A stretch of DNA of 41,898 nucleotides from Ruminococcus sp. (lineage in GTDB: Bacteria > Bacillota > Clostridia > Oscillospirales > Ruminococcaceae), in assembly GCA_017622925.1 (NCBI GenBank), contig JAGAQC010000053.1, forward strand, positions 1 to 41,898, in the 5' to 3' direction. The notes below the pieces were generated by a model, which worked only from the letters and a program-made list of their open reading frames with translations, was not told where the DNA came from and did not search any database. Below, piece after piece: positions 3,278-41,756 of this stretch. The first letter of the stretch is position 1. Each line of letters opens with the position of its first letter. Position numbers and translations under genes: made by a program.

Positions 3278-3317
3278 TATTAAACAACTGTCCACAATTA
3301 AGCGGGTCTTGTTACCC

Positions 3318-3496
3318 TTTACTTTCTGTTAAAGAGGTAACTTTCGGTGTCCGTTCTCGTGAATTGGATTGTGAAAATCATGAGAACTAACAGCATCAAA
3401 CTAATTCGGAGATTTTCACAGTCCAATTCACGACAACAGAGATTCCAAAGGGGTCACCCCTTTGGCAGGGGGTGTGGGGGACAGAGTCCCCCACTT
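3318..3496 (+). repeat. Family A structured repeat, copy A1
   Basis: Order of parts: TCTGTTAAAGAGGTAAC leader, long hairpin arms at 3358-3379 and 3411-3432 (21 of 22 pairs), then ACAACAGAGATT, hairpin 3445-3465 (CCAAAGGGG/CCCCTTTGG) and hairpin 3474-3494 (GTGGGGGAC/GTCCCCCAC). The same order of parts recurs at six other places here. The arm sequences of this copy differ from the other copies while remaining self-complementary. Confidence 0.85.
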
Positions 3497-3509
3497 AATT
3501 TGTAGGCAG

Positions 3510-3713
3510 AAAAAAAATTGACCTCCGCCTGTTGCTGCGAAGGTCAATTCTATCAAAATACAGCTCTTGCTGTACTCCGACTCTGATTTGCGTTTGTATG
3601 GACTGCCGTAAACCCGACAGCAGTTCCATACGACCGATTCTGCTAAAATCGGTCCCGGCTCTAAATTGAGACCTCTTCCACAGTGAGGTTTCAATTTAAA
3701 GCTCCCCTTTACT
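3510..3713 (-). ncRNA. Putative structured small RNA, family not identified
   Basis: Read on the minus strand, five hairpins follow one another: 3697-3663 (13-bp arms, one mismatch), 3654-3632 (GACCGATT/AATCGGTC, perfect), 3631-3596 (11 bp with one bulge), 3574-3559 (TACAGC/GCTGTA, perfect) and 3547-3518 (11 bp with wobble pairs), the last followed by eight U residues as a terminator. A TATAAT at 3725-3720 would start transcription near 3712; its -35 is weak (TACAAA). No credible reading frame fills the stretch. The layout is that of a free-standing RNA of about 200 nt. It does not fold as the single long rod of 6S RNA, and I cannot place it in tmRNA, SRP RNA or RNase P RNA. Confidence 0.6.
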
Positions 3714-10865: not shown

Positions 10866-11013
10866 AGTTCCACGTGAAACGCTGTTTTAATGTTTCACAT
10901 GGAACATTTTGTGTTTTGATCTGTTTTCTGTTTCACGTGAAACAAAATTATCCTGAGTTTAAGTGTTTCACGTGAAACAACAGGTGTTTCTCAGGAATGT
11001 TTCATGTGAAACA
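10866..11013. promoter_or_regulatory. Nest of five parS sites
   Basis: Sites at 10866-10881 (AGTTCCACGTGAAACG), 10891-10906 (TGTTTCACATGGAACA), 10929-10944 (perfect), 10964-10979 (perfect) and 10998-11013 (TGTTTCATGTGAAACA). The last ends one base before the noc stop codon. Centres are 25-38 bp apart. This is the densest ParB-loading region of the window and fills the noc-parA gap together with the parA promoter. Confidence 0.93.
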
Positions 11014-11014
11014 C

Positions 11015-11830
11015 TTACGATATTTTCATCGGAATTCTTACACGGTATTCTATGTAATCTTCGCTCTGTATTCTACGGGACTCCGCATGAATCCCCGACG
11101 ACTGCATTGTCTCAATTGCTTTATTGATCGTATTCAGAAAAAAACTCACATGTTGAAACGCTCCCGAACGCTTTTTGCATCGCTGAATATCCTTACGTCT
11201 GCCGATATACTCATCAATGAGCAGTTCGGTTTTCTCAACGTTAAGATTATTCTTGACTATCTTCTCTAAAACGGAGACTCTGTCCTCGGGACTTGCAAGT
11301 CTTAGCAAGGCGCGAGCGTGTCTCTCCGTCAAATTGTATTCCGTGATAATTTTACGTTCATCTGGCGTCAAACGGAGGATTCGGAGTTTGTTAGCCACCG
11401 TACTTTGCGCTCTGCCGAGCTTAACAGCGGCTTCCTCCTGCGTAAGTCCATAATATGTTATAAGCTTCTCAATTGCTGCCGCTTCATCAAAAAAGGGGAG
11501 GTCCTGCCTTTGAATGTTCTCCACAAGGGCTATTATAGCGGAATCCCTGTCATTAATTTCGTGAACTATACACGGTACATACGCCATTTCGCACATTTTC
11601 GCCGCGCGAAGTCTGCGTTCCCCTGCAATCAGCTCGTATTTATCGCCGATTCGTCTGACAGAGAGCGGCTGTAAAATTCCGTTCTGGGAAATTGACTCCG
11701 CCAACGATACTATTTCCGCCTCATTGAACTGCTTTCGGGGCTGATTCGGATTCGGAATAACTCTCCCGATCTCGACCTCGATAACTTTGTTGATTTGTCT
11801 CTCTTTGACTGCATTAAAAAATCCTGCCAT
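11015..11830 (-). CDS. noc: Nucleoid occlusion protein Noc (ParB paralogue)
   Basis: A 271-residue ParB/Noc protein. The short hydrophobic N-terminus (MAGFFNAV) fits the membrane-targeting helix of Noc. The CTP-binding motif is GERRLRAAK. The recognition region reads GRAQSTVANKLRILRL and then LTERHARALL: Gln, Lys and the later Arg are at positions that in published ParB/Noc work switch specificity from parS to the Noc site NBS. Noc blocks Z-ring assembly over the chromosome. The ATG at 11830 has GAGGAA upstream; an extension to 11959 would run through the rsmG terminator. It is separated from rsmG by that terminator. Confidence 0.88.
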   Translation of the reverse strand: MAGFFNAVKERQINKVIEVEIGRVIPNPNQPRKQFNEAEIVSLAESISQNGILQPLSVRRIGDKYELIAGERRLRAAKMCEMAYVPCIVHEINDRDSAIIALVENIQRQDLPFFDEAAAIEKLITYYGLTQEEAAVKLGRAQSTVANKLRILRLTPDERKIITEYNLTERHARALLRLASPEDRVSVLEKIVKNNLNVEKTELLIDEYIGRRKDIQRCKKRSGAFQHVSFFLNTINKAIETMQSSGIHAESRRIQSEDYIEYRVRIPMKIS

Positions 11831-14589: not shown

Positions 14590-15951
14590 TTATTTTCCCA
14601 CGCAAAACCGTGAAAAAACTTCATCGACAACAGCGTCCGTTATCTTTTCTCCTGTCAATTCAAGCAGACTCTGTTCAGCCTCGTCAAGAAGAACGTTCAC
14701 AGCGTCCAGCATTTCGCCGAAATTTATAGCGTTAATAGCCTCCCTGACTGCTCCCAAAGCCTTTTCAATGCAAAGCTTCTGACGTTCATTTGAAACAGTA
14801 GTCATCGAAAAACTGTCGGGATTCATCTCAAAAATATCATTTACTGCCGATTCGAGTTCGGAAATTCCTGTATTTTCTTTAGCTGAAATATATACTAAAT
14901 GTATAAAACTATCTTTCAAAACAGCTTCGTCAATCACTGTTTCCTCGTCTGATTTATTGACTACAGCAATACATTTTTTATTTTTAATTTTGTTTATCAA
15001 TTCCAGATCGTCCGCCGTGAGAGGACAACTTCCGTCAAAAACGGCAATTACGAGTTCCGCCGCTTCAACCGTTTTCCATGCAATTTCAACTCCGATACCC
15101 TCGATCACATCGTCCGTTTCTCTGATACCGGCAGTATCTGAGAGCCTGAGAGCAATGTCCCCCAGCACGACAGTTTCCTCCACCACGTCACGGGTAGTTC
15201 CTGCGATATCCGTGACAATGCTTCGGCGGCAACCGCTCAGGCAGTTAAACAGGGTCGATTTCCCGACGTTCGGTCTGCCGACTATCGCAGTCGCCACACC
15301 ATTTCGTATAATACGTCCCCTGTCGTAATCGGCAATGAGCGCGGAAAGGTCGCCTGCGATCTCCGAAAGCTCGGCAGAAAGCGCATTCGGCTCGACCTCG
15401 GGAATGTCCTCGTCGGGATAGTCCGTCCACGCCGCAAGACCGCCGAGCAGCTTAATTAACCGAGCCGAACACTTCTGAGCGGCTTTATAAACAGCTCCCT
15501 CACGGAGATTTTCAGCCATTTTCAGCTCGGTTTCGCTCTTTGCGGCGATAATGTCCATGACCGATTCCGCCTGAGTGAGGTCGATTTTTCCGTTAAGATA
15601 CGCGCGTTTTGTAAATTCCCCAGCTTCGGCAATAACCGCGCCGTTTTTCAATGCGGCACGAAGAATTTTCTTTGAGACGAAAAGTCCGCCGTGGCACGAT
15701 ATTTCGGCAATATCCTCGCCTGTGTAGCTGTGAGGACTGCGGAAAACCGTCAGAATGCAGTCGTCGATACGCTCGCCGCCGCTGTGAGCAATCCCGTAAG
15801 CGCAGGTATATCCCTCCATAGTTTCGACGTTTTTTCCGCCGAACGGAGTGAATATCCGCTGTGCCACGTCAATTGCGTTGTCTCCCGAGATTCGGATAAC
15901 GGCAATTCCGCCTGCCGCATTCGGGGTAGAAATTGCAGCAATTGTTGACAT
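14590..15951 (-). CDS. mnmE: tRNA modification GTPase MnmE (TrmE)
   Basis: A 453-residue GTPase partner of MnmG. The N-terminal tetrahydrofolate-binding domain starts MSTIAAISTPNAAGGIAVIR. A helical domain is interrupted by the G domain with GRPNVGKS (G1), IAGTTRD (G2), DTAGIR (G3) and NKSD (G4). The C-terminus is FCVGK, with the catalytic cysteine of the family. RBS CAGGAGA. It lies downstream of jag but is separated from it by 470 bp of repeats. Confidence 0.97.
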   Translation of the reverse strand: MSTIAAISTPNAAGGIAVIRISGDNAIDVAQRIFTPFGGKNVETMEGYTCAYGIAHSGGERIDDCILTVFRSPHSYTGEDIAEISCHGGLFVSKKILRAALKNGAVIAEAGEFTKRAYLNGKIDLTQAESVMDIIAAKSETELKMAENLREGAVYKAAQKCSARLIKLLGGLAAWTDYPDEDIPEVEPNALSAELSEIAGDLSALIADYDRGRIIRNGVATAIVGRPNVGKSTLFNCLSGCRRSIVTDIAGTTRDVVEETVVLGDIALRLSDTAGIRETDDVIEGIGVEIAWKTVEAAELVIAVFDGSCPLTADDLELINKIKNKKCIAVVNKSDEETVIDEAVLKDSFIHLVYISAKENTGISELESAVNDIFEMNPDSFSMTTVSNERQKLCIEKALGAVREAINAINFGEMLDAVNVLLDEAEQSLLELTGEKITDAVVDEVFSRFCVGK

Positions 15952-15987
15952 AATTTTCTCCTGTAAAATTCACTGTCCACAACTTTA

Positions 15988-16163
15988 GCAGGGGGACGCC
16001 GTCCCCCTGACCTCCTGCCAAAGGGGTGACCCCTTTGGAATCTCTGTTGTCGTAAATTCTACTGCATAAAGCCGCCACATAAATCCGAATCCATATTATA
16101 TTATGGCTTTATGTAGTAGAACTTACGATATAGGGTTCAAAAGATTACCTTTCGGCAAAAGAT
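15988..16163 (-). repeat. Family A structured repeat, copy A2
   Basis: Minus orientation. Hairpin arms at 16052-16073 and 16105-16126 (imperfect 22 bp), GC hairpins at 15989-16036, and the leader ends in GGTAATCTTTTGAACCC on the minus strand. It faces copy A3, so the mnmE-jag gap (15952-16422) holds two inverted copies with about 130 bp between them in which I see nothing else. Confidence 0.82.
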
Positions 16164-16290
16164 ACGGGGAGCAATATCCAACTAAGTTGCAGATAATAAT
16201 TTCTTCACATGTAAAAATAACGGCATTAAGCCGTTGGTATTATAAATATAATGTGGTACTCTAAGCAAGAGATTTTGTACCACTTCATTT

Positions 16291-16423
16291 CTTGCCAAAA
16301 GGTAACTTTTTGAACACAATATCGTAACTTTATACCCCTTTTGGGGTATAAAGTTACGAAAACTGAGATTCCAAAGGGGTCACCCCTTTGGCAGGGGGTG
16401 CAGGGGGACAGAGTCCCCCTGCT
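16291..16423 (+). repeat. Family A structured repeat, copy A3
   Basis: The leader hairpin AAAAG-GTAA-CTTTT (16297-16310) has a GNRA-type loop. The long hairpin is replaced by a perfect 16-bp palindrome, CGTAACTTTATACCCC (16323-16338), loop TTTT, complement 16343-16358. The usual CCAAAGGGG/CCCCTTTGG and GCAGGGGGAC/GTCCCCCTGC hairpins follow. The last ends at the jag stop codon and could act on that transcript. Confidence 0.85.
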
Positions 16424-17616
16424 TATAGTTCGATCTTGCCGTACAGTCCGCCCTCCATGGAATCCTCGGGCTTCGGCTTCTTATAATCCTTTTCAAAGCT
16501 CGTGGAAAGACCTGTGGAGAAATCCATAGCCTTTGGCTCGTAATTATCACGGCGTCTGTCGTTTCCACCCTGTCTGCCGCCTCTGCGGTCGTCACGGCGA
16601 GAACCTCTGCCGCCCCTGCCGCCGCGGTTGTTCTTGGGATTTGTAGAGGAAATAATTATCTTTCTGTAAGGCTCTTCGCCGACAGAACGTGAGGAAACTC
16701 CCTCAATTTCGGAAACTGCCGAATGAATAACGCGTCTTTCATAGGGATTCATAGGCTCGAGCTGCTGCGATCTGCCTGTTCTGATGACCGTTCTTGCGAC
16801 CTTTGCCGCAAGCTGTTCGAGAGTTTCCTTTCTCTTGCTGCGGTAGCCGAGACAGTCGATCGTGATACGGAAATAATCCTTATCTCCCTTATTAGCGATA
16901 ATTGAGCAGAGGTACTGAATGGAATCCAGCGTTTCGCCGCGTCTGCCGATTATCGTTCCGTTATTGTTGCTTTCAATATTTATGACCGCGCCCGTTTCGT
17001 TCTGATAAACCTTGAAACTTGCGTCAACGTTCATTGCATTGAGAATGCTTGTGATGTAGTCCCTTGCGATCTTGACCTTGGGATTTACAAGAGCCTCGTC
17101 CTCGATAAGAGTGAACTCCTCCAGAGAAAAATCCTTTTCTTCCTCGTTTGCGGGAACTTCCTTTATCTCCGCAGCCTCCTCGGACTTAGAAACTGCCTTT
17201 ACCTCGACTTTTTTCGGAGCTTCTTCGGACTTAGAAACTGTCTTTACCTCGACCTTTTTCGGAGCTTCTTCCGACTTTGGAACAGCCTTAACTTCAACCT
17301 TTTTCGGAGCTTCTTCCGACTTAGAAACAGCCTTAACTTCGACCTTTTTCGGAGCTTCCTCGGACTTGGAAACAGCCTTAACTTCGACTTTTTTCGGAGC
17401 TTCCTCAGTCTTGGGAGCTTCTTTTTTCACCTCGGGCTTCGGAACAGCGGCAACGTATGTAGCCCTGACCTTTGCGTCGGTCTGACCTATGCCGAAAAAT
17501 CCCTTTTTGCCCTCCTCAAGGACTTCAAATTTTATCTCGCCTGCTTTTTTTCCAAACTTTCTGACCGCCATAGCCTTAGCTTCATCGACGGTTTTAGCAG
17601 TAAATACTTCTGTCAT
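16423..17616 (-). CDS. khpB: RNA-binding protein KhpB (Jag/EloR)
   Basis: A 397-residue protein with an N-terminal Jag-N domain (about 1-55, FGIGQTDAKV), a long Lys/Glu-rich spacer, a KH domain (about 185-260, with NNNGTIIGRRGETLDSIQ) and an R3H domain (about 265-330, ending in RKIIISS). A Gly/Arg-rich tail (RGGRGGRGSRR) completes it. The spacer includes five tandem 15-residue units (PKKVEVKAVSKSEEA type). KhpB binds RNA with KhpA and affects cell elongation in related Firmicutes. RBS GGGAGG before the ATG. It sits 15 bp after yidC, its usual neighbour. Confidence 0.93.
   Translation of the reverse strand: MTEVFTAKTVDEAKAMAVRKFGKKAGEIKFEVLEEGKKGFFGIGQTDAKVRATYVAAVPKPEVKKEAPKTEEAPKKVEVKAVSKSEEAPKKVEVKAVSKSEEAPKKVEVKAVPKSEEAPKKVEVKTVSKSEEAPKKVEVKAVSKSEEAAEIKEVPANEEEKDFSLEEFTLIEDEALVNPKVKIARDYITSILNAMNVDASFKVYQNETGAVINIESNNNGTIIGRRGETLDSIQYLCSIIANKGDKDYFRITIDCLGYRSKRKETLEQLAAKVARTVIRTGRSQQLEPMNPYERRVIHSAVSEIEGVSSRSVGEEPYRKIIISSTNPKNNRGGRGGRGSRRDDRRGGRQGGNDRRRDNYEPKAMDFSTGLSTSFEKDYKKPKPEDSMEGGLYGKIEL
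17183..17407. repeat. Five tandem 45-bp units inside khpB
   Basis: Units begin at 17183, 17228, 17273, 17318 and 17363. They are nearly identical in DNA as well as protein (GACTT..GAAAC..CCTT at each start), so the array is recent and could vary in copy number without a frame change. No spacers differ between units, which rules out CRISPR. Confidence 0.9.
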
Positions 17617-20147: not shown

Positions 20148-20255
20148 GGGATTTTTAGAATTTTTTTCAAAAATATAAAATTTTGATACTTTTGAACAAT
20201 TAAAACAAAATTTTTTTAGCACAATTTATATAATTGACAATCAATATCTAAAACT

Positions 20256-20336
20256 TTAGCGGGGGACTCTGTCCCCCTGCACCCCCTGCCAAAGTGACAC
20301 CGTCCCTTTGGGATACCGATGTTAGTTTACTTTAGT
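20256..20336 (-). repeat. Fragment related to families A and B
   Basis: Holds GCGGGGGACTCTGTCCCCCTGC, then GGGTGC-type sequence, a damaged CCAAAG..CTTTGG hairpin, and ends CGATGTTAGTTTACTT, as the complete family B copy at 41520-41756 does. It looks like a decayed or chimeric copy. Confidence 0.65.
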
Positions 20337-20351
20337 TTTTAGTTTAGAGAC

Positions 20352-20652: not shown

Positions 20653-22026
20653 ATGAATTCATTCAAAGAATTATTTGATAATGTAAAGCAATACTGCCTT
20701 GAAAACGGCAAGATCCCCGCTATCGGTATAAAAACATGGATCGATCCCCTAACGCCCGTAAATTTCGACGGCTCAAACGCTGTTTTCAGCGTAGGTACAG
20801 AATTTCAGAAAAATATAGTCATGGGTACTTACGCTTCCGTCCTCACTGACGCATTTCTCAACCTGCTCGGACTTAATGTAAATATTATAATCAATGTTGA
20901 ATCGGACGCTCCCGAAACTCCTGCGGCTGTTCCCACAGAAGCCGAACTTGAAAAGAAAAACGCCGAGCTTGAAAAAACTTATAAATTCGCAAACTACGAT
21001 TATACCTTCGATACGTTTATTGAAGGTCCGTCAAACAGCTTTGCCCTCGCTTGCAGCAAATCAGTTGCAAAAAACTGCGGAGAACACGAAATATCGGGCT
21101 ATAATCCCCTTTTTATCTACGGTCCGTCGGGAATGGGCAAAACTCACCTCATAACTGCTATCGCAAACGAGGTCAGAAACACCCGTCCCGAATACAACAT
21201 CGTGTATACCACCAGCGAGACCTTCGGAAACGACCTTATAGCGGCAATTCAGAAAAATCAAATCTCCGATTTCCATGAAAAATACAGAAACGCCGATATG
21301 CTCCTTATCGACGATATACAGTTCCTTGCCGGAAAAGAGCGAATGCAGGAGGAATTTTTCCACACCTTCTACAAGCTTCATCAGGAGGGCAAGCAAATCG
21401 TCATCACCTCCGATAAGCCGCCGAAAGAGCTTATTACCCTTGAAGCCCGTCTGAGAACACGTTTTGAGGGAGGTCTTATCGCCGATATTTCCGCGCCTGA
21501 TTTTGAAACACGACTTGCCATCATTACAAGAAAAAGCGAACTGCTCGATCTGAAAATGCCCCCCGAGGTATCGGAATTTATGGCAAACCGCTTAAAATCG
21601 AATATCCGTCAGCTTGAGGGAGCTGTTATCCGCCTTAAAGCCCTTAACCACTTCGCAGGAAGTCCCATAACTATTTCCATGGCGCAGAGCGTTATCAGGG
21701 ACGTTCTCACGGACGAACAGCCTATACCGATAACCGTTGAAAAAATTATCAGCGAGGTTTCCACGGTATACGGAGTATCCCCCGAAGATCTCCGCTCGAA
21801 CAAGCGTTCGCAGCAGATCTCGATCGCCCGAAAAGTGGCTATATACGTAGTCCGCGAGATAACCGACATGCCCCTTGCCTCTATCGGAACGGAATTCGGC
21901 GGACGCGACCACTCTACTATCGTATACTCAGTAAACAGCGTAGTTGCGGCAATTCAAAAGGACGCTAACCTCAATAACCTTGTAAACGATATTATCAAAA
22001 ATATCAGAGATAAGAGCAAGGGTTGA
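20653..22026 (+). CDS. dnaA: Chromosomal replication initiator DnaA
   Basis: A 457-residue initiator. Domain I about 1-80, a short Glu/Lys-rich domain II (85-112), AAA+ domain III with Walker A GPSGMGKTHL (about 157-166) and Walker B LLIDDIQFL (about 217-225), and domain IV with the DNA-binding signature EFGGRDHSTIVYS near residues 415-426. The domain IV signature is standard, so the DNA-contact helix gives no reason by itself to expect an unusual box. RBS GGAGG before the ATG. Flanked on both sides by TTTTCAACA clusters. Confidence 0.98.
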   Translation: MNSFKELFDNVKQYCLENGKIPAIGIKTWIDPLTPVNFDGSNAVFSVGTEFQKNIVMGTYASVLTDAFLNLLGLNVNIIINVESDAPETPAAVPTEAELEKKNAELEKTYKFANYDYTFDTFIEGPSNSFALACSKSVAKNCGEHEISGYNPLFIYGPSGMGKTHLITAIANEVRNTRPEYNIVYTTSETFGNDLIAAIQKNQISDFHEKYRNADMLLIDDIQFLAGKERMQEEFFHTFYKLHQEGKQIVITSDKPPKELITLEARLRTRFEGGLIADISAPDFETRLAIITRKSELLDLKMPPEVSEFMANRLKSNIRQLEGAVIRLKALNHFAGSPITISMAQSVIRDVLTDEQPIPITVEKIISEVSTVYGVSPEDLRSNKRSQQISIARKVAIYVVREITDMPLASIGTEFGGRDHSTIVYSVNSVVAAIQKDANLNNLVNDIIKNIRDKSKG

Positions 22027-22056
22027 TCTCCCTTACTTACCGAAGCTGCGAAAATT

Positions 22057-22231
22057 GGGATTCCAAAGGGACGGTGTCCCTTTGGCGGAGTCCAGAGGCA
22101 GCGCCTCTGGCAGGGTGTGGGACAGAGTCCCACAAAAGCGTTAAGCGCTCCGCAAAGGGTGAATTTCAAAACAGTCCTGTGGACTGTTTTGAAAGAGGGA
22201 ACGCCCTGCAAGAGAGGGCGTTCCCTTAGAA
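22057..22231 (+). repeat. Family B hairpin-chain repeat, copy B1
   Basis: Five main hairpins in a row: 22063-22085 (CCAAAGGGA/TCCCTTTGG), 22092-22110 (CCAGAGGC/GCCTCTGG), 22117-22133 (GTGGGAC/GTCCCAC), 22164-22194 (TTTCAAAACAGTCC/GGACTGTTTTGAAA) and 22197-22225 (GGGAACGCCC/GGGCGTTCCC). Directly downstream of dnaA. No U-tract, so it is not a typical terminator. Confidence 0.88.
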
Positions 22232-22285
22232 AGATACGGTTAAAATGTGGTCTTTGCATTTATGTAGTTCCAAACAGTTTTTTAT

Positions 22286-23973: not shown

Positions 23974-24007
23974 GCATTTTACGGGGGACGCTAAATAACT
24001 TAAGCGT

Positions 24008-24187
24008 ACTAACATCGGGATTCCAAAGGGACGGTGTCCCTTTGGCGGAGTCCAGAGGCAGCGCCTCTGGCAGGGTGTGGGACAGAGTCCCACAAAAGCG
24101 TTAAGCGCTCCGCAAAGGGTGAATTTCCAAACAGTCCTGTGGACTGTTTGGAAAGAGGGAACGCCCTGCAAGAGAGGGCGTTCCCTT
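24008..24187 (+). repeat. Family B hairpin-chain repeat, copy B2
   Basis: Same layout as B1 directly downstream of dnaN. The fourth hairpin reads CCAAACAGTCC/GGACTGTTTGG where B1 reads CAAAACAGTCC/GGACTGTTTTG, so both sides changed and pairing is kept. Confidence 0.88.
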
Positions 24188-24256
24188 ACTAAAGAAAAAA
24201 TATCTCAATAAGTTGCAGATAATGAAAAAAAGGAGAGAAAAAAAAGGAGAGATTTA

Positions 24257-24961: not shown

Positions 24962-26083
24962 GTGCTTATAACTTATGCCGAAATAGACGGCTTCAAGAAT
25001 TTATCGAACATATCCTTTGCCCCCGACCTGAAATATAATATCATCGTCGGAGCAAACGCGCAGGGGAAAACGAATCTTCTCGAGGCTTTGTGGATATTGT
25101 CGGGGTGCAGGAGTTTCCGCGGCTCTAAGGAACGGGATTATATCGCTCTGAACGGCAGCCGCATGACCTCGAAAATAAAAATAAGAGATGCCGTTCGCGA
25201 GCAGAAAATAGAGTTTGAAATGATAAAGGCGGCTAATATCGTTAAAAATATTACATTGAACGGCGTGAAGCAAAAGGGTACAAGGGCGTTATTTGACGTT
25301 TTCAAGTGCATTGCTTTCATACCCGACGATGTGGATATTATTAAGGGCGCGCCCGAAAAACGGCGGAATTTCATTGATATGGCTGCTTCTCAGCTTAACC
25401 CTCTTTTTGTCGTTCATATCAACAAAAATAACGCTGTAATGAATCAGCGGAACGCCTTGCTCAAATCCATAATGCAGGGAAATTCGTCCGCCGACGTTCT
25501 TGAAATATGGGACAGACAAGCGGCTCACGAGGGCGCGCTTATCTCATATATGCGCAACGAATACGTTAAAAAAATAAACGGTATATGCGGACGGCTTTAC
25601 GCCGCAATTTCAGGCGGTACGGAGACTTTGGAGCTTGAATACAAGTCGAACGTCTACAAGCCCGAGGACTTCGACGAACCCTGCGATTCGGCTGCCTTTG
25701 ATAAATATTATAACAAGCTCCGTGAAAATTCCGAATACGATATACGCACCGGTTCGACCCATTCGGGGGTGAACCGTGACGAGATACTGATAAAAATAAA
25801 CGGCGTAAGCGCAAAGGATTACGGCTCTCAGGGGCAGATAAAGTCCGCAGCGTTGGTCATGAAGCTCGCTCAGGCGGAAATTTTCATGAGCCGCTGTAAG
25901 GACGCTCCCGTGGTCTTTCTTGACGACGTTATGGGCGAGCTTGACGAAAACCGTCAGCGGTTCGTTTTTGAAATAATCAAGGATATGCAGGTCTTTATCA
26001 CAACGCCCAACGAAAGCGCGCTGCTCCCCGAAATACAGGGGAAGATCATCAGGATAAGCGAGGGAAAAACAGCAGATGAATAA
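24962..26083 (+). CDS. recF: DNA replication and repair protein RecF
   Basis: A 373-residue SMC-like ATPase that helps load RecA at gaps. Walker A GANAQGKTN (about residues 31-39), a CRSFRGSKERDYI stretch, an ABC-type signature near YGSQGQIKSAAL and Walker B VVFLDDVMGELDENRQ near 312-327. Start is GTG at 24962 with AGGGGGAG upstream. It overlaps remB by 8 bp, so the two are translationally coupled. Confidence 0.96.
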   Translation: MLITYAEIDGFKNLSNISFAPDLKYNIIVGANAQGKTNLLEALWILSGCRSFRGSKERDYIALNGSRMTSKIKIRDAVREQKIEFEMIKAANIVKNITLNGVKQKGTRALFDVFKCIAFIPDDVDIIKGAPEKRRNFIDMAASQLNPLFVVHINKNNAVMNQRNALLKSIMQGNSSADVLEIWDRQAAHEGALISYMRNEYVKKINGICGRLYAAISGGTETLELEYKSNVYKPEDFDEPCDSAAFDKYYNKLRENSEYDIRTGSTHSGVNRDEILIKINGVSAKDYGSQGQIKSAALVMKLAQAEIFMSRCKDAPVVFLDDVMGELDENRQRFVFEIIKDMQVFITTPNESALLPEIQGKIIRISEGKTADE

Positions 26084-26339: not shown

Positions 26340-26357
26340 TCACTATCTACAACTTTA

Positions 26358-26530
26358 GTGGTGGACTCTGTCCCCCACATCCCCTGCCAAAGGGGTGACC
26401 CCTTTGGAATCTCTGTTGTCGTGAATTTGACTGTGGCAATCTTCCATATCACTATGAAGCTGTTAGTCTCCATGATTTCCGCAGTAAAATTCACGATAAT
26501 GGGTTCAAGAGTTACCTTTTGACAGAAGAT
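26358..26530 (-). repeat. Family A structured repeat, copy A5
   Basis: Minus orientation in the remB-gyrB gap. Hairpin arms 26420-26441 and 26474-26495 (imperfect 22 bp, different sequence from A6-A8), and GC hairpins at about 26360-26407. At its outer end TTGACA-17-TATCTA (26519-26547) could serve as a weak gyrB promoter. The remaining 26548-26690 holds only the gyrB RBS. Confidence 0.82.
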
Positions 26531-26690
26531 AAAGGAGACAATATCTACTAAGTTTTAGATATTGATATGCGGCATCTTATAAAAGATAAGGATACAGCAC
26601 GATCCACAACATAAACGCAGGACATAGCACGAGCCTGTGATAATAAATATCAATTTCCGTAATATTGCGGTAATTTGTTTGGAGGTACAC

Positions 26691-28643: not shown

Positions 28644-29156
28644 ATGGAAAATAAATTACTTGAAAAAAAATACAAAATTCCCATAGACACGATTCGCGAG
28701 GGATATAAGGCTTACCAGCGGAAATTTGTCAATTTGAGAAGATATATTCTTACTGCGGTGTTCCTGATATTGACGGCGAACTTCGTATACGGCGCGGCAA
28801 AGGACAGCGATAATTATATCGCTTATATACTGATTGTAATATGTCTTGCGTTTGCGTTCAGAGAGTGGTACAATCCCGTGAAGCTCCGAAACAGCGTTAT
28901 AGAAAGCTGCAAAGAGCTGGGAGACCCTCTGTACTGCCTGACCGTGACCGAGGACGAGGTCGTAATATCCACGGAAACAGAGGAAAACGAGCCGCCCGAG
29001 CCTGCAAGACTTCCCGTAAACGATGAGCTGAGCGTCCTCGAATATGATAATTTTTTCCTGATAGTATACGGCAAGCTGATGTTTTATATTGTCCCGAAAG
29101 CAGATTTTTCAGAATCGGAGCTTGATATTGTCAGAAATTTAACTAAAGGGAACTAA
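28644..29156 (+). CDS. Small two-helix membrane protein, possibly YcxB-like
   Basis: A 170-residue protein. Residues about 34-50 and 58-72 are hydrophobic and form a probable membrane hairpin; the rest is a soluble domain with alternating hydrophobic strands (CLTVTEDEVVIST..., DNFFLIVYGKLMFYIVPK). This shape resembles the YcxB-like family, but the match is by eye. It lies between gyrB and gyrA, 27 bp after gyrB, probably co-transcribed. Weak RBS (AAGGGTGG). Confidence 0.75.
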   Translation: MENKLLEKKYKIPIDTIREGYKAYQRKFVNLRRYILTAVFLILTANFVYGAAKDSDNYIAYILIVICLAFAFREWYNPVKLRNSVIESCKELGDPLYCLTVTEDEVVISTETEENEPPEPARLPVNDELSVLEYDNFFLIVYGKLMFYIVPKADFSESELDIVRNLTKGN

Positions 29157-29331
29157 CATTGGGATTCCAAAGGGACGGTGTCCCTTTGGCGGAGTCCAGA
29201 GGCAGAGCCTCTGGCAGGGTGTGGGACAGAGTCCCACAAAAGCGTTAAGCGCTCCGCAAAGGGTGAATTTCAAAACAGTCCAGTGGACTGTTTTGAAAGA
29301 GGGAACGCCCTGCAAGAGAGGGCGTTCCCTT
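29153..29331 (+). repeat. Family B hairpin-chain repeat, copy B3
   Basis: Begins at the stop codon of the preceding gene (ACTAACATTGGGATTCC). Same five hairpins as B1, with the loop of the fourth changed from TGT to AGT. Between it and gyrA are about 100 bp with no other feature than the RBS. Confidence 0.88.
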
Positions 29332-29429
29332 AGAAATGCGAAGAAATGCGAAAAAATTAAGCAGAAAATAAAATTGGAATTGCTGTAATACCAAGTAAAT
29401 AATATCCTGAAATACAGGAGGTAATAAAT

Positions 29430-32063
29430 TTGTTATATAACGATAATTCAAAGATCATTAATTCCGAAATAGTTGACGAAATGGAAAACTCCATGCTTCA
29501 ATACGCCATGTCGGTCATCGTTTCAAGAGCTTTGCCCGATGTTAGGGACGGTCTGAAGCCCGTTCACAGGCGTATTCTGTATACCCTGCACGAAAACGGT
29601 CTTACCCCCGAAAAGGCGTATCGTAAGTGCGCCGATACAGTCGGTGCGGTTTTGGGACGTTATCACCCTCACGGCGACGCGTCTGTTTATGACGCGCTCG
29701 TTCGTCTTGCGCAGACGTTTTCCCTGCGTTATCCCCTTGTTGACGGTCACGGAAACTTCGGTAACATCGACGGCGACAAGGCGGCGGCTTACCGTTATAC
29801 AGAGGCTAAAATGGCGAAGCTCACCCTTGAAATGCTCCGCGACATCAACAAGGAAACCGTTGACTACATGCCCAACTATGACGACCGTCTGCAAGAGCCT
29901 GTGGTGCTTCCGTCACGCTTTCCTAACCTGCTTGTAAACGGCTCTACGGGTATCGCAGTCGGCATGGCGACAAATATTCCTCCTCACAATATGGGCGAGG
30001 TCGTGGACGCTTTGCAGCTCCTCATTGACGACCCCGACTGCACCCTCGACCAGCTTATGGAGCATATCAAAGGTCCTGATTTCCCCACAGGCGGCATTGT
30101 TATGGGAAAATCGGGAATACGCGCGGCATACGGCACGGGCAGAGGAAAGGTAATACTTCGCAGCCGTACCCATTTTGAGGAGATCAAGGGCAGAAACTGC
30201 ATTATAGTTGACGAAATTCCGTACATGGTCAACAAAACGCTTATACTTAAAAATATTAATCAACTTTGCAAGGATAAGCGTATTGAGGGAATTTATGCGC
30301 TCAACGACGAATCAGACAAGGAAGGTCTGCGTATCGTTATAGAGCTTAAAAAGGACGCTATACCCGAAATTGTCCTCAATAAGCTGTTTGCCATGACGAA
30401 GCTGCAAGATACTGTGGGTATAATTATGCTCGCCCTTGTAAACGGCGAACCGAAGGTGCTTACCCTCAAACAGATGCTCAGTCACTACCTTGACTTTCAG
30501 GTTGACGTTATTCAGCGGCGTACACGCTACGACCTGCGTAAGGCTCTTGAAAGGGCGCATATCCTGCAAGGTTTTATACTCGCAGTTGATAATATTGACG
30601 AGGTTATCGCTATCCTGAGAAGCAGCAAGACTATCCCCGAAGCTAAGTCTCGCATGATAGAGCGGTTCAAGGACGTTGACATGTCGAATCTCCTTGACAG
30701 AGCCGAGTACGACCTGTCAAACATTCACCACCTCGAGCATGAAAAAGGTCTTTCCGAGGAACAGGCGGAGGCTATCGTTCAGATGCGTCTTGGTGCGCTG
30801 ACAGGTCTTGAACGTCAGAAAATCACGGACGAATTATACGCGCTGTTATCAAAAATTTCAGACCTTAAAGATATTTTGGCGGACGTTAATCGTGTGTACG
30901 AAATTATCATGGAGGACTTGAACGTTATCCGCAAGAAATTCAGCGACGAACGTCGCACCGATATTGAATCCGTAAGCGGTGAGGTCGATATCGAGGACCT
31001 TATCCCTGTGGAGGACTGCGTTGTCACCCTCACGAATAACGGCTATATCAAGCGTATGCCCGTTTCGGAATATAAGTCTCAGAAACGCGGCGGACGCGGT
31101 ATATCGGGAATGAAACAGCGTGAGGAGGACTTTGTTGAGGAGATGTTTATCTGTGGAACTCATGATAACATTCTCTTTATTTCAAACAAGGGCATCATGT
31201 ACAAGCTGAAATGCTACGAGATTCCCGACGGCTCGAAGGCTTCAAGGGGATTCAATCTTATAAATCTTCTGCCGCTGACCGAGAACGAAAAGGTTACGGC
31301 GATGATAAAGACCACCGATTTCAGCGACGAAAGATTTATTACAATTGTAACAAAAAACGGTAAAATAAAGCGAACAAATCTGTCGCTTTACCGAAATGTC
31401 CGCAAAAACGGTCTTATCGCTATCGGACTTGACGAGGGCGACGAGATCGCGGGAGTTCGCATGACAAACGGTCACGAGCAGATTTTTGTGGCTACTCGCA
31501 ACGGAATGGCTATCCGCATCGAGGAGGACAAGGGCAGGGCGATGTCACGTTCGGCTCACGGCGTAAAGGCTATAAAGCTGCGTGAGGGAGATTACGTGGT
31601 CGGCGTTGCAAGGATCCGCGAGGGAGCTTCGCTTCTGACTGTCACCGAGAACGGCTACGGCAAGCGGACTGAGGTCGAAAGCTATCGAATCCAGAACAGA
31701 GGCGGCTACGGTCTGACGAATTATAAGGTCGATGAAGTTCGCGGTCACGTGTGCGGAATCAAAATTGTCGATGAAAGCGACGATGTAATTATGGTGTCAA
31801 GCGACGGCATAATCATCAGAATACATGCGGCGGACGTGAGAATTATGGGCAGAATCGCCAAAGGTGTCCGTGTGATGCGTGTCGGAGAGGGCGCAAAGGT
31901 GGTCGCCTTTACCAGAACCGAGCGTGACGATTCCGCCGAGACTGAAAAGGTCGAGCAGCTTACCGAGGAGCAGATCAAGGCTGCCGAAGCCGAAGCCGCC
32001 GAGGAAGAAAAGAAAGAGGTCGTGATCGAAGCCGACCCCGAGGACGTCGATAACGAGGAATGA
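29430..32063 (+). CDS. gyrA: DNA gyrase subunit A
   Basis: An 877-residue GyrA. Quinolone-resistance region PHGDASVYDALVRLAQ is present with Ser at the usual 83-equivalent position followed by Val, and the catalytic tyrosine is in AAYRYTEAKM. The C-terminal beta-pinwheel begins with the GyrA box QKRGGRGISG, which marks gyrase rather than topoisomerase IV. An acidic tail (EEEKKEVVIEADPEDVDNEE) ends the protein. TTG start at 29430 with AGGAGGT eight bases upstream; an internal ATG 18 codons on is less likely. Confidence 0.97.
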   Translation: MLYNDNSKIINSEIVDEMENSMLQYAMSVIVSRALPDVRDGLKPVHRRILYTLHENGLTPEKAYRKCADTVGAVLGRYHPHGDASVYDALVRLAQTFSLRYPLVDGHGNFGNIDGDKAAAYRYTEAKMAKLTLEMLRDINKETVDYMPNYDDRLQEPVVLPSRFPNLLVNGSTGIAVGMATNIPPHNMGEVVDALQLLIDDPDCTLDQLMEHIKGPDFPTGGIVMGKSGIRAAYGTGRGKVILRSRTHFEEIKGRNCIIVDEIPYMVNKTLILKNINQLCKDKRIEGIYALNDESDKEGLRIVIELKKDAIPEIVLNKLFAMTKLQDTVGIIMLALVNGEPKVLTLKQMLSHYLDFQVDVIQRRTRYDLRKALERAHILQGFILAVDNIDEVIAILRSSKTIPEAKSRMIERFKDVDMSNLLDRAEYDLSNIHHLEHEKGLSEEQAEAIVQMRLGALTGLERQKITDELYALLSKISDLKDILADVNRVYEIIMEDLNVIRKKFSDERRTDIESVSGEVDIEDLIPVEDCVVTLTNNGYIKRMPVSEYKSQKRGGRGISGMKQREEDFVEEMFICGTHDNILFISNKGIMYKLKCYEIPDGSKASRGFNLINLLPLTENEKVTAMIKTTDFSDERFITIVTKNGKIKRTNLSLYRNVRKNGLIAIGLDEGDEIAGVRMTNGHEQIFVATRNGMAIRIEEDKGRAMSRSAHGVKAIKLREGDYVVGVARIREGASLLTVTENGYGKRTEVESYRIQNRGGYGLTNYKVDEVRGHVCGIKIVDESDDVIMVSSDGIIIRIHAADVRIMGRIAKGVRVMRVGEGAKVVAFTRTERDDSAETEKVEQLTEEQIKAAEAEAAEEEKKEVVIEADPEDVDNEE

Positions 32064-33143: not shown

Positions 33144-33199
33144 CTACATCGAGAAGGTATTATTGAATTTTTTTATAATTTAAAAGGGCTTTGTTTCCT

Positions 33200-33380
33200 A
33201 TATCTTCTGTTAAAGAGGTAACTCTTAGAACCCTATATCGTAAATTTACCTGTATAAAGCCATGTAAACTTGAATTTACAAATAAACAAGGAGGCTTTAT
33301 ACAGGTAAATTTGCGACAACAGAGATTCCAAAGGGGTCACCCCTTTGGCAGGGGGTTCAGGGGGACAGAGTCCCCCTGTT
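33200..33380 (+). repeat. Family A structured repeat, copy A6
   Basis: Leader hairpin AAGAG-GTAA-CTCTT (33214-33227), long hairpin arms 33239-33261 and 33293-33315 (22 of 23 pairs), then the CCAAAGGGG and AGGGGGAC hairpins. Almost the same as A7, 3.8 kb away in the same orientation. It ends at the stop codon of the convergent ytaF-like gene. Confidence 0.88.
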
Positions 33381-33384
33381 TAAG

Positions 33385-34005
33385 TTATGATAAATTTTCA
33401 AAAATAGCAAATGCGATGAGGGCAGCGCCGCCGAGCCATGAAAGGTCGTGGTTCATGGCGGCGATCTTTCGTCCTGCAAGGCTGCCGAAAATAATAGCCG
33501 CAGATCCCGTAATACAGGCAAAAAGTGTCGATATTACGGGATCAATTTCGTTATAGCCCGTACTTAGTCCCGTTGTTATTGAGTCGAGAGAGCCTGCGAG
33601 AGCAAGGGCGATCGCTTCTTTCAGCGAGAGAACTTTAGAGCAGTCGAAATCGGCGGCGGTGTCGTCGAGATAAAGCTTCACCACAATTCCGCTGCTGCCC
33701 GTATGAAGCGAAAGTTCGCCCCTCTGCGAAAGCCGTCGGACAAGATTGCGTATAAGACTTTTGAAGATCGTAGTTATCCCAATGGCGGTAAGTATGATAA
33801 ATCCCGATATTTCGCAGATTCGCACAGGTATAAAGCCGCTGAGAAAGCTTGAAAAAAGCAGGGAAAGTCCCAGTGAGAGTGCGCTGAATGTGACGACAAC
33901 GGCGGCTGATAGAAAAGGAATTTTTATGCTGCCCGAGCGGTAGGCGGCGGCAGCAAGAAAAGTGTCGATGCTGATTATTACAGCAAGTATAACTTCTTGA
34001 AGCAC
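33385..34005 (-). CDS. ytaF: YtaF/MntP-type membrane protein
   Basis: A 206-residue polytopic protein with six probable helices in two related halves. The first half has ISIDTFLAAAAYRSG and the second has ALAGSLDSITTGLSTGY, the paired acidic motifs of the MntP manganese exporter superfamily. The loop LDDTAADFDCSKVLSLKEAIALA matches the EF-like insert of the sporulation protein YtaF. Cation export or a sporulation role are the family options; neither is shown here. No yybP-ykoY-like leader is visible upstream. Confidence 0.75.
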   Translation of the reverse strand: MLQEVILAVIISIDTFLAAAAYRSGSIKIPFLSAAVVVTFSALSLGLSLLFSSFLSGFIPVRICEISGFIILTAIGITTIFKSLIRNLVRRLSQRGELSLHTGSSGIVVKLYLDDTAADFDCSKVLSLKEAIALALAGSLDSITTGLSTGYNEIDPVISTLFACITGSAAIIFGSLAGRKIAAMNHDLSWLGGAALIAFAIFENLS

Positions 34006-36882: not shown

Positions 36883-37002
36883 TTATGCACCTCCTTCCGT
36901 GCGCCTTCACTTATATATTGTCACGGAATGGGAAATGGTTCACGTTTTTTTAGAAAAAAGAGAAATTTTTTTTTGCTTATCAAGAGGATTTTGTTTCCTG
37001 CA

Positions 37003-37179
37003 TTCTCTGTTAAAGAGGTAACTCTTAGAACCCTATATCGTAAATTTACCTGTATAAAGCCATGTGAACTCAAATTTACAAATAAATAAGGAGGCTTTAT
37101 ACAGGTAAATTTACGACAACAGAGATTCCAAAGGGGTCACCCCTTTGGCAGGGGGTGTGGGGGACGGCGTCCCCCACTT
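37003..37179 (+). repeat. Family A structured repeat, copy A7
   Basis: Leader hairpin AAGAG-GTAA-CTCTT, perfect 23-bp arms at 37039-37061 and 37093-37115, then CCAAAGGGG/CCCCTTTGG and GTGGGGGAC/GTCCCCCAC. It ends at the stop codon of the convergent dipeptidase gene and fills the gap from the sigma gene. Confidence 0.9.
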
Positions 37180-38440
37180 AATAAGCAGAACAGAGTTCGA
37201 GAATGGCTTCTGCCATGATTTCGGCATTTTTCAGCAGGCTTTCCTCGGTGATGTACTCGTCCGCGCCGTGCATATTTCCGCTGCCGTCGGGATATTCTGC
37301 GCCGAAAGCCACGCCGCCGTCAATTTCGTGGACGTAAGTTCCGCCGCCGATAGTGATACAGCTCCCCTTTTCGCCGCTGACCCTTTCGTAAACTTTAAGG
37401 AGCTTTTGGACAAATTCGCTGTTTTCGTCGGTATAATGGGGTTCGCTGCCCTCGCAGGTGTCAATTGAGAAGCCTGCCGACTGAAGCTTTCCGCATATGA
37501 TACGGCTGACCTCGGCTTTGGAGCGGTCAAGGGGATAGCGTATGTCGATACCGCCCCTGAGAGAGTTTTCAACAGTATTTAACATAGACAATACACAGGT
37601 GAAATTTGCCGAATTATCGCCAAAAATCGCCTTTCCCTCAACATCACCGTGTTGAAAACATTGTTGAATACTTTTAACGACCTGACTGTTTCCACTGTAC
37701 TGTGAGAGAAACTTTGTTATTGCGTTTTCGCCCTGCCAAGGAGTTGACGCGTGAGCCGATTTCCCCCTGTATACGGTCGTTTCGCCGCCAATTTTCACGA
37801 CACATGAAGCAGGGACTGCGTTGATGACTTCTCCTGCCGAGATTTCAACATCATCGTCAAGCATTGTTGAAAAGTACACTCGCAGCATACCCTTTTCGCC
37901 GTTGATGACAGGGTACTCGCCGTCAGGAGTGAACACCATAGGCGGCAGTTTGCGTTTTGTGCGGTAGTACGCAAGGTCAGCCGAGCCGTTTTCCTCATTA
38001 GTGCCGAAAATCAGACGTACCCCCTTTTTCAGCGGTATACCGAGTTCTCGGACGGCTCTTGCGGCAAAAACAGCGGCAACGGCAGGTCCTTTGTCGTCGA
38101 TAGTTCCCCTGCCTACGAGCTTATTTCCGCAGCGTGTAAGTACGAACGGGTCGCTGCTCCAACCCGTGCCTGTGGGTACAACGTCAAGGTGCGTAAGTAT
38201 CCCGAGGGCAGATTCGAGGTCGTTGATGTCTGCCGAGCCTGCGTAGTTTTCAACATTGTCAACAGCAAAACCGAAACGCTCGCAGCTTTCAAGTATTAAT
38301 CTGAGCGCATTGGCAGGAGCTTCACCGAACGGCGTATCTTTTGCGGCTTCTCCCTGAACGCTCGGGACGGCAACGAGTTCCCCGAGAAGTCCGATCATTT
38401 CGTCCTTGTGTTCCTCCAAATATGTTCTTATGGCTGTCAT
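37178..38440 (-). CDS. M20-family dipeptidase (PepV/Sapep type)
   Basis: A 420-residue dinuclear metallopeptidase that would split dipeptides in the cytoplasm. Metal and catalytic motifs: LTHLDVVPTG (first His and catalytic Asp), GTIDDKGP (bridging Asp), GTNEENGS (catalytic Glu pair) and GGGTYVHEIDGGVAFG near the C-terminus. A lid domain is inserted in the middle. RBS AGGAGG. Isolated from ugpC by a terminator. Confidence 0.88.
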   Translation of the reverse strand: MTAIRTYLEEHKDEMIGLLGELVAVPSVQGEAAKDTPFGEAPANALRLILESCERFGFAVDNVENYAGSADINDLESALGILTHLDVVPTGTGWSSDPFVLTRCGNKLVGRGTIDDKGPAVAAVFAARAVRELGIPLKKGVRLIFGTNEENGSADLAYYRTKRKLPPMVFTPDGEYPVINGEKGMLRVYFSTMLDDDVEISAGEVINAVPASCVVKIGGETTVYRGKSAHASTPWQGENAITKFLSQYSGNSQVVKSIQQCFQHGDVEGKAIFGDNSANFTCVLSMLNTVENSLRGGIDIRYPLDRSKAEVSRIICGKLQSAGFSIDTCEGSEPHYTDENSEFVQKLLKVYERVSGEKGSCITIGGGTYVHEIDGGVAFGAEYPDGSGNMHGADEYITEESLLKNAEIMAEAILELCSAY

Positions 38441-40675: not shown

Positions 40676-40711
40676 GGTTTTTCCTTTCAGCAATCACTGT
40701 CTACAACTTTA

Positions 40712-40893
40712 GCAGGGGGACTCCGTCCCCCTGTACCCCCTGCCAAAGGGGTGACCCCTTTGGAATCTCTGCTGTCGTAAATTTACCTGTATAAAGCCGC
40801 CGAATTTACGTGTAATTTTAAGTTCACATGGCTTTATACAGGAAAATTTACGATAATGGGTTCTAAGAGTTACCTATTTAACAGAAAGTAAAG
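40712..40893 (-). repeat. Family A structured repeat, copy A8
   Basis: Minus orientation. Arms 40776-40798 and 40830-40852 (22 of 23 pairs), GC hairpins 40713-40762, leader ending in GGTAACTCTTAGAACCC on the minus strand. It occupies the gap between the divergent pseudouridine synthase and DUF4830-like genes. Confidence 0.88.
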
Positions 40894-40994
40894 GGTGTCA
40901 AAATCCTCTAAAATTGTAAATAGTGTTTCAGCAAGCATAATTTGAAACGATTTGAACATACTATTGAATGTCAAGAATTTTTTGGAGGAATAAT

Positions 40995-41426: not shown

Positions 41427-41519
41427 TTAGCGGCTTAGTGGGGGACGTTGGTTTCAATGTTATCAACTTAAAGAATTATTGTTTCTTTAATAAAGACAAG
41501 TCATGCCATGTTTTTACTA

Positions 41520-41756
41520 AGGGAACGCCCTCTCTTGCAGGGCGCACTTCGTGCCGTCCCCTCTGCCCTTCGGGCATCTCCCCACCCGTGGGGAGTCACC
41601 TCTTTCCAAACAGTCCATCGGACTGTTTGAAAATTCACCCTTTGCGGAGCGCTTAAACGCTATGCAGGGCTTCGCCCCGCACCCCACCAGAGACGCTGCC
41701 TCTGGACTCCGCCAAAGGGACACCGTCCCTTTGGAATCCCGATGTTAGTTTACTTA
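41520..41756 (-). repeat. Family B hairpin-chain repeat, long copy B4
   Basis: Minus orientation, about 237 bp. It has the same end hairpins as B1-B3 plus an extra GC-rich segment (TGCCCTTCGGGCA and CCCCACCCGTGGGG hairpins) inserted between the last two. It ends CGATGTTAGTTTACTTAG. Confidence 0.85.

Follow-up and report, generated by a model that had tools for sequence, protein, structure and literature searches.

Copies of a repeat scattered around the replication origin of a Ruminococcus genome carry a central hairpin whose letters differ from copy to copy. A sequence-only reading of one such copy (A3, 16291-16423) took this as a sign of selection on folded RNA or single-stranded DNA, which raises the question of whether the two arms of the hairpin change together and, if so, what keeps them paired. 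We analysed a stretch of 41,898 nt (the window) together with the assembly to which it belongs (2.5 Mb, 76 contigs, completeness 87.8%) and related genomes. The window spans the origin region, with dnaA at 20653, recF at 24962, gyrB at 26637, gyrA at 29430 and, on the minus strand, mnmE at 14590 and jag at 16423. Sites resembling TGTTTCACGTGAAACA near the origin (5547, 10866-11023, 13099 and 14570) are presumably parS, and six 45-bp tandem repeats lie within the jag (EloR) gene at 17110-17461.

The repeat, designated family A, is an element of ~230 nt that, oriented by its core, reads left end (CACTRTCYACAACTTAAG), leader, central hairpin, spacer, core (GATTCCAAAGGGGTCACCCCTTTGGCAG), right hairpin (GGGGGACNNNGTCCCCC) and right end. 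The central hairpin has a stem of 16-24 bp and a loop of ~31 nt, or of a few nt in compact copies, and was sorted into types G, T, Tp, P, Q and compact; mosaics were seen in which leader types and hairpin types are combined variously. Seven oriented copies with their parts in a common order had been reported from the window, and all were confirmed (Table 1). Their central hairpins differ yet remain self-complementary, as had been claimed: each of the seven folds as single-stranded DNA with a z score between -4.03 and -12.31, and none of 200 dinucleotide shuffles folded as well. The arms of the A3 hairpin are indeed perfectly palindromic, forming a 17-bp stem without mismatch around a TTTT loop.

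Table 1. Repeat elements of families A and B in the window.
Feature	Position	Strand	Remarks
Family A copy A1	3285..3510	+	Outer limits approximate; central hairpin 3358-3432; sister species: inverted element with another central hairpin
Family A copy A2	15971..16200	-	Outer limits approximate; central hairpin 16051-16127
Family A copy A3 (locus under study)	16281..16430	+	Outer limits approximate; compact central hairpin 16322-16359; sister species: core degraded, hairpin largely paired
Core 28-mer of A3, GATTCCAAAGGGGTCACCCCTTTGGCAG	16367..16394	+	Near-invariant across copies found
Family A copy A4	26341..26560	-	Outer limits approximate; central hairpin 26420-26495; sister species: T-type hairpin here
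Family A copy A6	33183..33390	+	Outer limits approximate; central hairpin 33239-33315
Family A copy A7	36990..37185	+	Outer limits approximate; central hairpin 37039-37115; sister species: same element at the same site
Family A copy A8	40694..40910	-	Direct flanking repeat TTGCTGAAA; central hairpin 40776-40852; sister species: short palindrome only
Family B element	22036..22254	+	Other interior; own covarying hairpin; members elsewhere in the genome have type I ends
Family B element	23996..24214	+	Sister species: family A element at this place
Family B element	29140..29358	+	
Family B element	41513..41756	-	Nested hairpin insert of ~58 nt

Two further arrangements were observed. A nested insert of ~58 nt (TGACTCCCTACAG...GGTTAGC) occupies the right-hairpin loop of 25 of the 110 family A copies by our own count from the listing (for example L008, L012, L016, L017, L028 and L065); in two of the 25 it is a variant in which both hairpins differ in letters and still pair, and in the window it is also found at 41591-41640, inside a different hairpin of a family B element. 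At 20239-20340, a hybrid repeat joins a family B-like core to a right hairpin and right end of family A-like sequence.

Searching with the core 28-mer at up to three mismatches gave 130 occurrences in the genome itself and 61 in that of a sister species; the 28-mer was present in only 2 of 100 genus genomes examined and, among 119 genomes of the family (118 genera), in this one alone. Copies near contig ends were removed, leaving 99 of 110 copies from the own genome and, in later sets, 135 of 150 and 162 of 171; 25 of the 162 parsed copies were compact or unparsed and were excluded from the arm statistics. A literature query of limited wording returned no paper on these Ruminococcus repeats.

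The arms of the central hairpin evolve together far beyond chance or relatedness. In subfamily G (n = 58), 20.67 of 22 positions paired within copies, against 19.46 with arms shuffled and 19.79 in the best of 1000 shuffles. For subfamily T, all 1000 arm shuffles gave less pairing than was observed, and for subfamily Tp (19 copies) the highest shuffled value matched the observed one. In the enlarged set of 70 G copies, 97.2% of cells were paired against 92.4% after shuffling, both sides had changed in 14 of 22 pairs against 4.2, and 66 cells were changed on both sides against 13.8 (3-18 in slid controls). Thus, the arm changes of the copies collected across the genome are paired more often than random shuffling gives in G, in agreement with the sequence-only reading. 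On a tree built without the arms (means of 20 reconstructions), the 70 G copies showed 50 double changes, 47 to Watson-Crick pairs and 3 to wobble pairs, against 5.2 for slid columns; 61 T and Tp copies, one of 62 having been excluded for misparsed arms, showed 8.8 against 0.7. An R-scape-type check was also run with a home-made substitution-shuffling null over all column pairs, a very strict one, from which two misparsed T/Tp copies were excluded. It bore out covariation (E < 0.05) for one pair only, in the right hairpin of the T and Tp run, and not for the central pairs, which ranked first and second in G with E of 0.21 and 1.9; we therefore rely on the tree-event counts and on the slid and shuffled controls.

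The same coupling appears between orthologues. Across 7 unexchanged copies shared with the sister species (154 pairs; sites L040/L102, L044/L107 and A3/L169 are not among them), we counted 7 double and 10 single changes. Five of the doubles led from Watson-Crick to Watson-Crick pairs, one to a wobble and one to a mismatch, whereas independent arms would give ~0.3 complementary doubles by our own arithmetic (24 side changes over 308 sites). The family B hairpin behaves likewise: in 98 of the 100 listed copies (one short and one long hairpin excluded; some rows are near-identical contig ends, and one copy was possibly counted twice), 1245 of 1274 cells are paired, and shuffling lowers this to 997.

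Other parts of family A differ from the central hairpin. The leader hairpin had been described as covarying around a constant GTAA (GNRA) loop, of which little held up: in G its pairing was 4.10 of 5 against 3.95 shuffled and 4.09 in the best of 500 shuffles, relatedness not being controlled, with 3.76 against 3.55 in T (best 3.84) and 4.59 against 4.58 in Tp (best 4.68). The loop reads GTAA in 111 of 134 copies, a weak indication of constancy given that likeness to GTAA was the criterion by which the loop was placed. The 28-nt core palindrome, unlike the central hairpin, is held by sequence and not by shape in most copies. In G, changes per column numbered 0.14 in the core and 10.4 in the loop, the former figure being biased by collection of the copies through their core match. 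At the 7 shared unexchanged sites, 3 of 238 core positions differed, with flanks at ~4-17%, and the core centre reads TCA in 169 of 171 copies. The core is also partly common to families A and B. An exception to its conservation is the sister copy at A3 (L169), in which the core is degraded.

Family A is a non-autonomous MITE, whose movement by an IS4-family transposase we infer from its anatomy. By permissive matching (at most 6 substitutions for type I ends and 9 for the longer type II), type I ends flank 66 of 99 full-flank copies on both sides and type II ends 17, the remaining 16 being mixed or unclear. The type II ends, of ~40 bp (AAATCAATTTTAAGG...), surround the same interior as type I in 17 copies, including L012, L064 and L021. 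A flanking direct repeat of at least 7 nt was found in 20 of the 66 type I copies, against a mean of 2.1 and a maximum of 6 in 200 flank shuffles, and target duplications of family A measure 9-10 bp. Four orthologous sites were empty (L011/L083, L013/L101, L034/L129 and L059/L128), and at five further sites the sister carries just a short palindrome, whole or in part.

The sixteen leading letters of the end gave 37 matches in the own genome. Some are family B ends, and three lie near contig ends before one identical other sequence, which led us to a complete IS in a congener (L165). This IS encodes a 445-aa transposase (PF01609, 1.1e-17; NF033592 IS4, 1.7e-40), has the same ends as family A and is flanked by a 10-bp duplication (GTTTAGCATC). 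In the own genome, the last 37 residues of a related transposase, 73% identical, stand at a further contig end; the IS interior is unassembled in this genome. The shared ends indicate that both families are non-autonomous and ride on an IS4-family IS, with transposition inferred. At contig ends (L018, L019, L050, L052, L142, L154 and L157), CCC-ending hairpin arms from family A, family B and the nested element are joined to an IS-like end that starts ATATGCACTAACC. Contigs stop at such ends, as expected of a multicopy IS inserting in hairpins, and another end of this kind occurs in L026 and L067. Family A resembles known MITEs of IS4-family IS in terminal inverted repeats common with the IS, 9-10 bp duplications, empty sites and high copy number; it differs from them in that successive palindromes make up the interior, the letters of one such palindrome changing on both arms, and in that some copies were exchanged or inverted in place.

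These exchanges emerged when insertion points were compared with the sister species, as the sequence-only reading had proposed, giving 14 places with family A in both genomes. Type and orientation agree at eight (L014, L021, L023, L045, L053, L063, A7 and A3). Two agree in orientation and have unlike central hairpins (L040/L102 and A4/L122); in L040/L102 the leader and core are unchanged, and both arms and the loop are replaced. At two others, the element is inverted in place, with the same type in L048/L137 and another type as well in A1/L168. The last two were rejected as exchange or inversion: L044/L107 represents two insertions separated by ~10 bp, both with a duplication of their own; L007/L136, in opposite orientation and with unlike outer repeats, looks like separate insertions. 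Both pairs are possible insertion hot spots. Replacement of the hairpin as a block at shared sites implies that wholesale differences between copies arise partly by exchange of blocks; such exchange alone carries no information on selection for the fold.

If such blocks were the whole story, dispersed copies would replace entire hairpins by gene conversion and pairing would be inherited rather than maintained. This fits the differing hairpin type at 3 of 12 shared insertions (L040/L102, A4/L122 and A1/L168) and the mosaic leader and hairpin combinations, but gene conversion is unable to create new paired letters. Among ~40 G branches with double changes, 35 carry a single double, and doubles outnumber those of slid columns about tenfold. 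A paired difference, T-A against G-C, also separates L014 from L096, which are of type Q, with one copy per genome found among the 162 parsed. We therefore consider gene conversion alone quite improbable. The in-place inversions at 2 of the 12 shared insertions, together with family B standing for family A at another site, the ~58-nt insert nested in both families, the IS ends joined to A and B hairpins and the near-invariant core partly common to both, could instead reflect a dedicated recombination system that recognises palindromes and can swap a cassette, invert it or nest it at a fixed socket. Ordinary recombination between repeats gives the same products, and the exchange boundaries differ from case to case, which makes such a system highly improbable in our view. 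A more specific form, in which a protein of host or transposon would recognise the 28-nt core, and the other hairpins would be recognised by single-stranded DNA shape, with cassettes exchanged, inverted and nested at fixed sites and their sequence left free, we regard as a long shot.

Selection is the explanation that the sequence-only reading favoured. Compensatory mutations would maintain the central hairpin as a DNA or RNA fold, in either orientation, through a need of the element or tolerance by the host. The strongly coupled arm changes, the few mismatches (97.2% of cells paired) and the slower change of the G arms (4.3 changes per column; loop 10.4, leader 6.7) speak for it, as does the rarity in G of transversion mismatches as singles relative to doubles (20 of 89 singles against 23 of 47 doubles, p 0.002). 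The T and Tp doubles are, the opposite of G, rich in transitions (6.8 transitions and 2.0 transversions, against 26.5 and 20.0 among singles). For RNA in particular, the expected marks were absent. Single changes from Watson-Crick pairs, counted on the element strand (mean of 20 reconstructions), produced 30 G.T and 22 A.C in G, and 9 and 14, respectively, in T and Tp, showing no wobble strand bias. No link was found between wobble type and transcription direction (p 0.45; 33 sense and 42 antisense copies, a comparison of little power). Among the 127 of 135 copies whose neighbouring genes could be called by simple ORF criteria, the other 8 lacking near neighbours, orientation bias was absent (40 sense, 48 antisense); convergent genes flank 30 of these copies and divergent genes 9, which suggests avoidance of promoter regions and not an RNA orientation. 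We therefore rejected an RNA read from one strand. A known RNA family was likewise rejected, as Rfam at gathering thresholds gave no match in the window, and selection on folded RNA is not supported. Two further observations weigh against selection: a sister copy with a degraded core has kept its hairpin with paired differences, and a loop flip, described below, is unexpected from selection alone. Taken together, selection on the fold appears somewhat unlikely.

Bacterial stem-loop repeat families include bcr1, BOX and REP, and REP/BIME elements with RAYT are recognised by a GTAG/CGTC tag and a TnpA-REP gene. GTAG/CGTC tags are also named in the accessible part of PMC3733652. Family A is like the stem-loop repeat families of bacterial genomes in being short, foldable and present in many copies; it is unlike them in that a possible RNA-level function is proposed by their authors in the accessible text of PMC2267715, whereas no RNA signature was found for family A.

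The explanation that we favour, and that is probably correct, combines a MITE of an IS4-family transposase with template switching between hairpin arms and recombination between copies. The central hairpin would extrude in single-stranded DNA at replication, and the polymerase may occasionally copy one arm from the other. Such copying would convert a one-sided mutation to a paired change and sometimes flip the loop; to judge from the pattern, the stem could stay paired while its letters drift, with RNA function not needed. Recombination between dispersed copies would account for the swaps of whole central hairpins, and recombination between the outer inverted repeats for the elements flipped in place; in both cases the outcome is observed and the route is the one we propose. 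Hairpin formation in DNA is thus likely to be the cause of the joint evolution of the arms. Of the earlier proposal of selection on a single-stranded DNA fold, the fold survives as a plausible mutational cause, with selection on it the less likely reading.

Two outcomes of template switching, arm homogenisation and spacer inversion, are described in the portion of PMC8604942 consulted, and the portion of PMC8794818 consulted proposes that the same process maintains RNA stems; covariation together with loop inversion is the expected product of switching between arms. Loop inversion was indeed observed in the sister copy L084, where the stem is in place and the loop is reverse-complemented. This is the one clear case among 70 G copies, L135 being ambiguous, and a screen of T, Tp, P and Q flagged none. 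Family B gave 7 mirrored (reverse-complement) loop pairs within identical-arm groups, against 4.0 expected (P 0.015). No inverted loop was found in the right hairpin among 120 readable loops of 171 copies, and the TCA at the core centre is nearly constant, though short stems should also switch; these results speak against template switching, as does the slower change of the arms relative to loop and leader. The arms of the type I ends, ~200 nt apart, showed no overall covariation (13.5 against 13.41 of 18 in 56 copies), with single positions deviating both ways; this control took just those ends matching the type I consensus at 13 or more of 18 positions, which limits variation. As the central arms covary and these distant arms do not, coupling seems to need closeness. 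Types I and II differ in their outer ends as paired blocks, which are among the top pairs of the all-column null. The sister copy at A3 (L169) also lacks a right hairpin and has kept the central stem, which differs from that of A3 by two C-G/T-A double differences and two one-sided mismatches; this copy looks dead, and selection for the element's own function is therefore not expected there.

Isolated paired changes, which in the consulted part of PMC8794818 the authors treat as uninformative on the mutation process, are the bulk of the paired changes here, a point against the template-switch explanation. Transversions were favoured in earlier bacterial data, according to the part of PMC8604942 consulted; the transversion-rich doubles of G point the same way, and the transition-rich doubles of T and Tp point the opposite way. 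Our case is like template-switch (quasipalindrome) mutation as described in the available text of PMC8604942 and PMC8794818 in arm homogenisation, loop inversion and the need for short spacing; it is unlike it in extending over more than 100 dispersed copies of a bacterial mobile element, with wholesale exchange of hairpins on top.

In summary, family A is a new family of MITEs belonging to an IS4-type IS, with hairpins in which paired letters drift together; it brings known kinds into a new combination, best explained by template switching and recombination. The near-frozen core inside this fluid element is a separate question. A stem with paired changes is usually held to prove that an RNA is functional; the ~190 copies of the two sister species covary strongly, with no RNA signature found and with loop inversions. 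They offer a natural system for gauging to what extent bacterial hairpins come to covary through template switching alone, and palindromic mobile elements of this kind are a warning to covariation-based RNA discovery.
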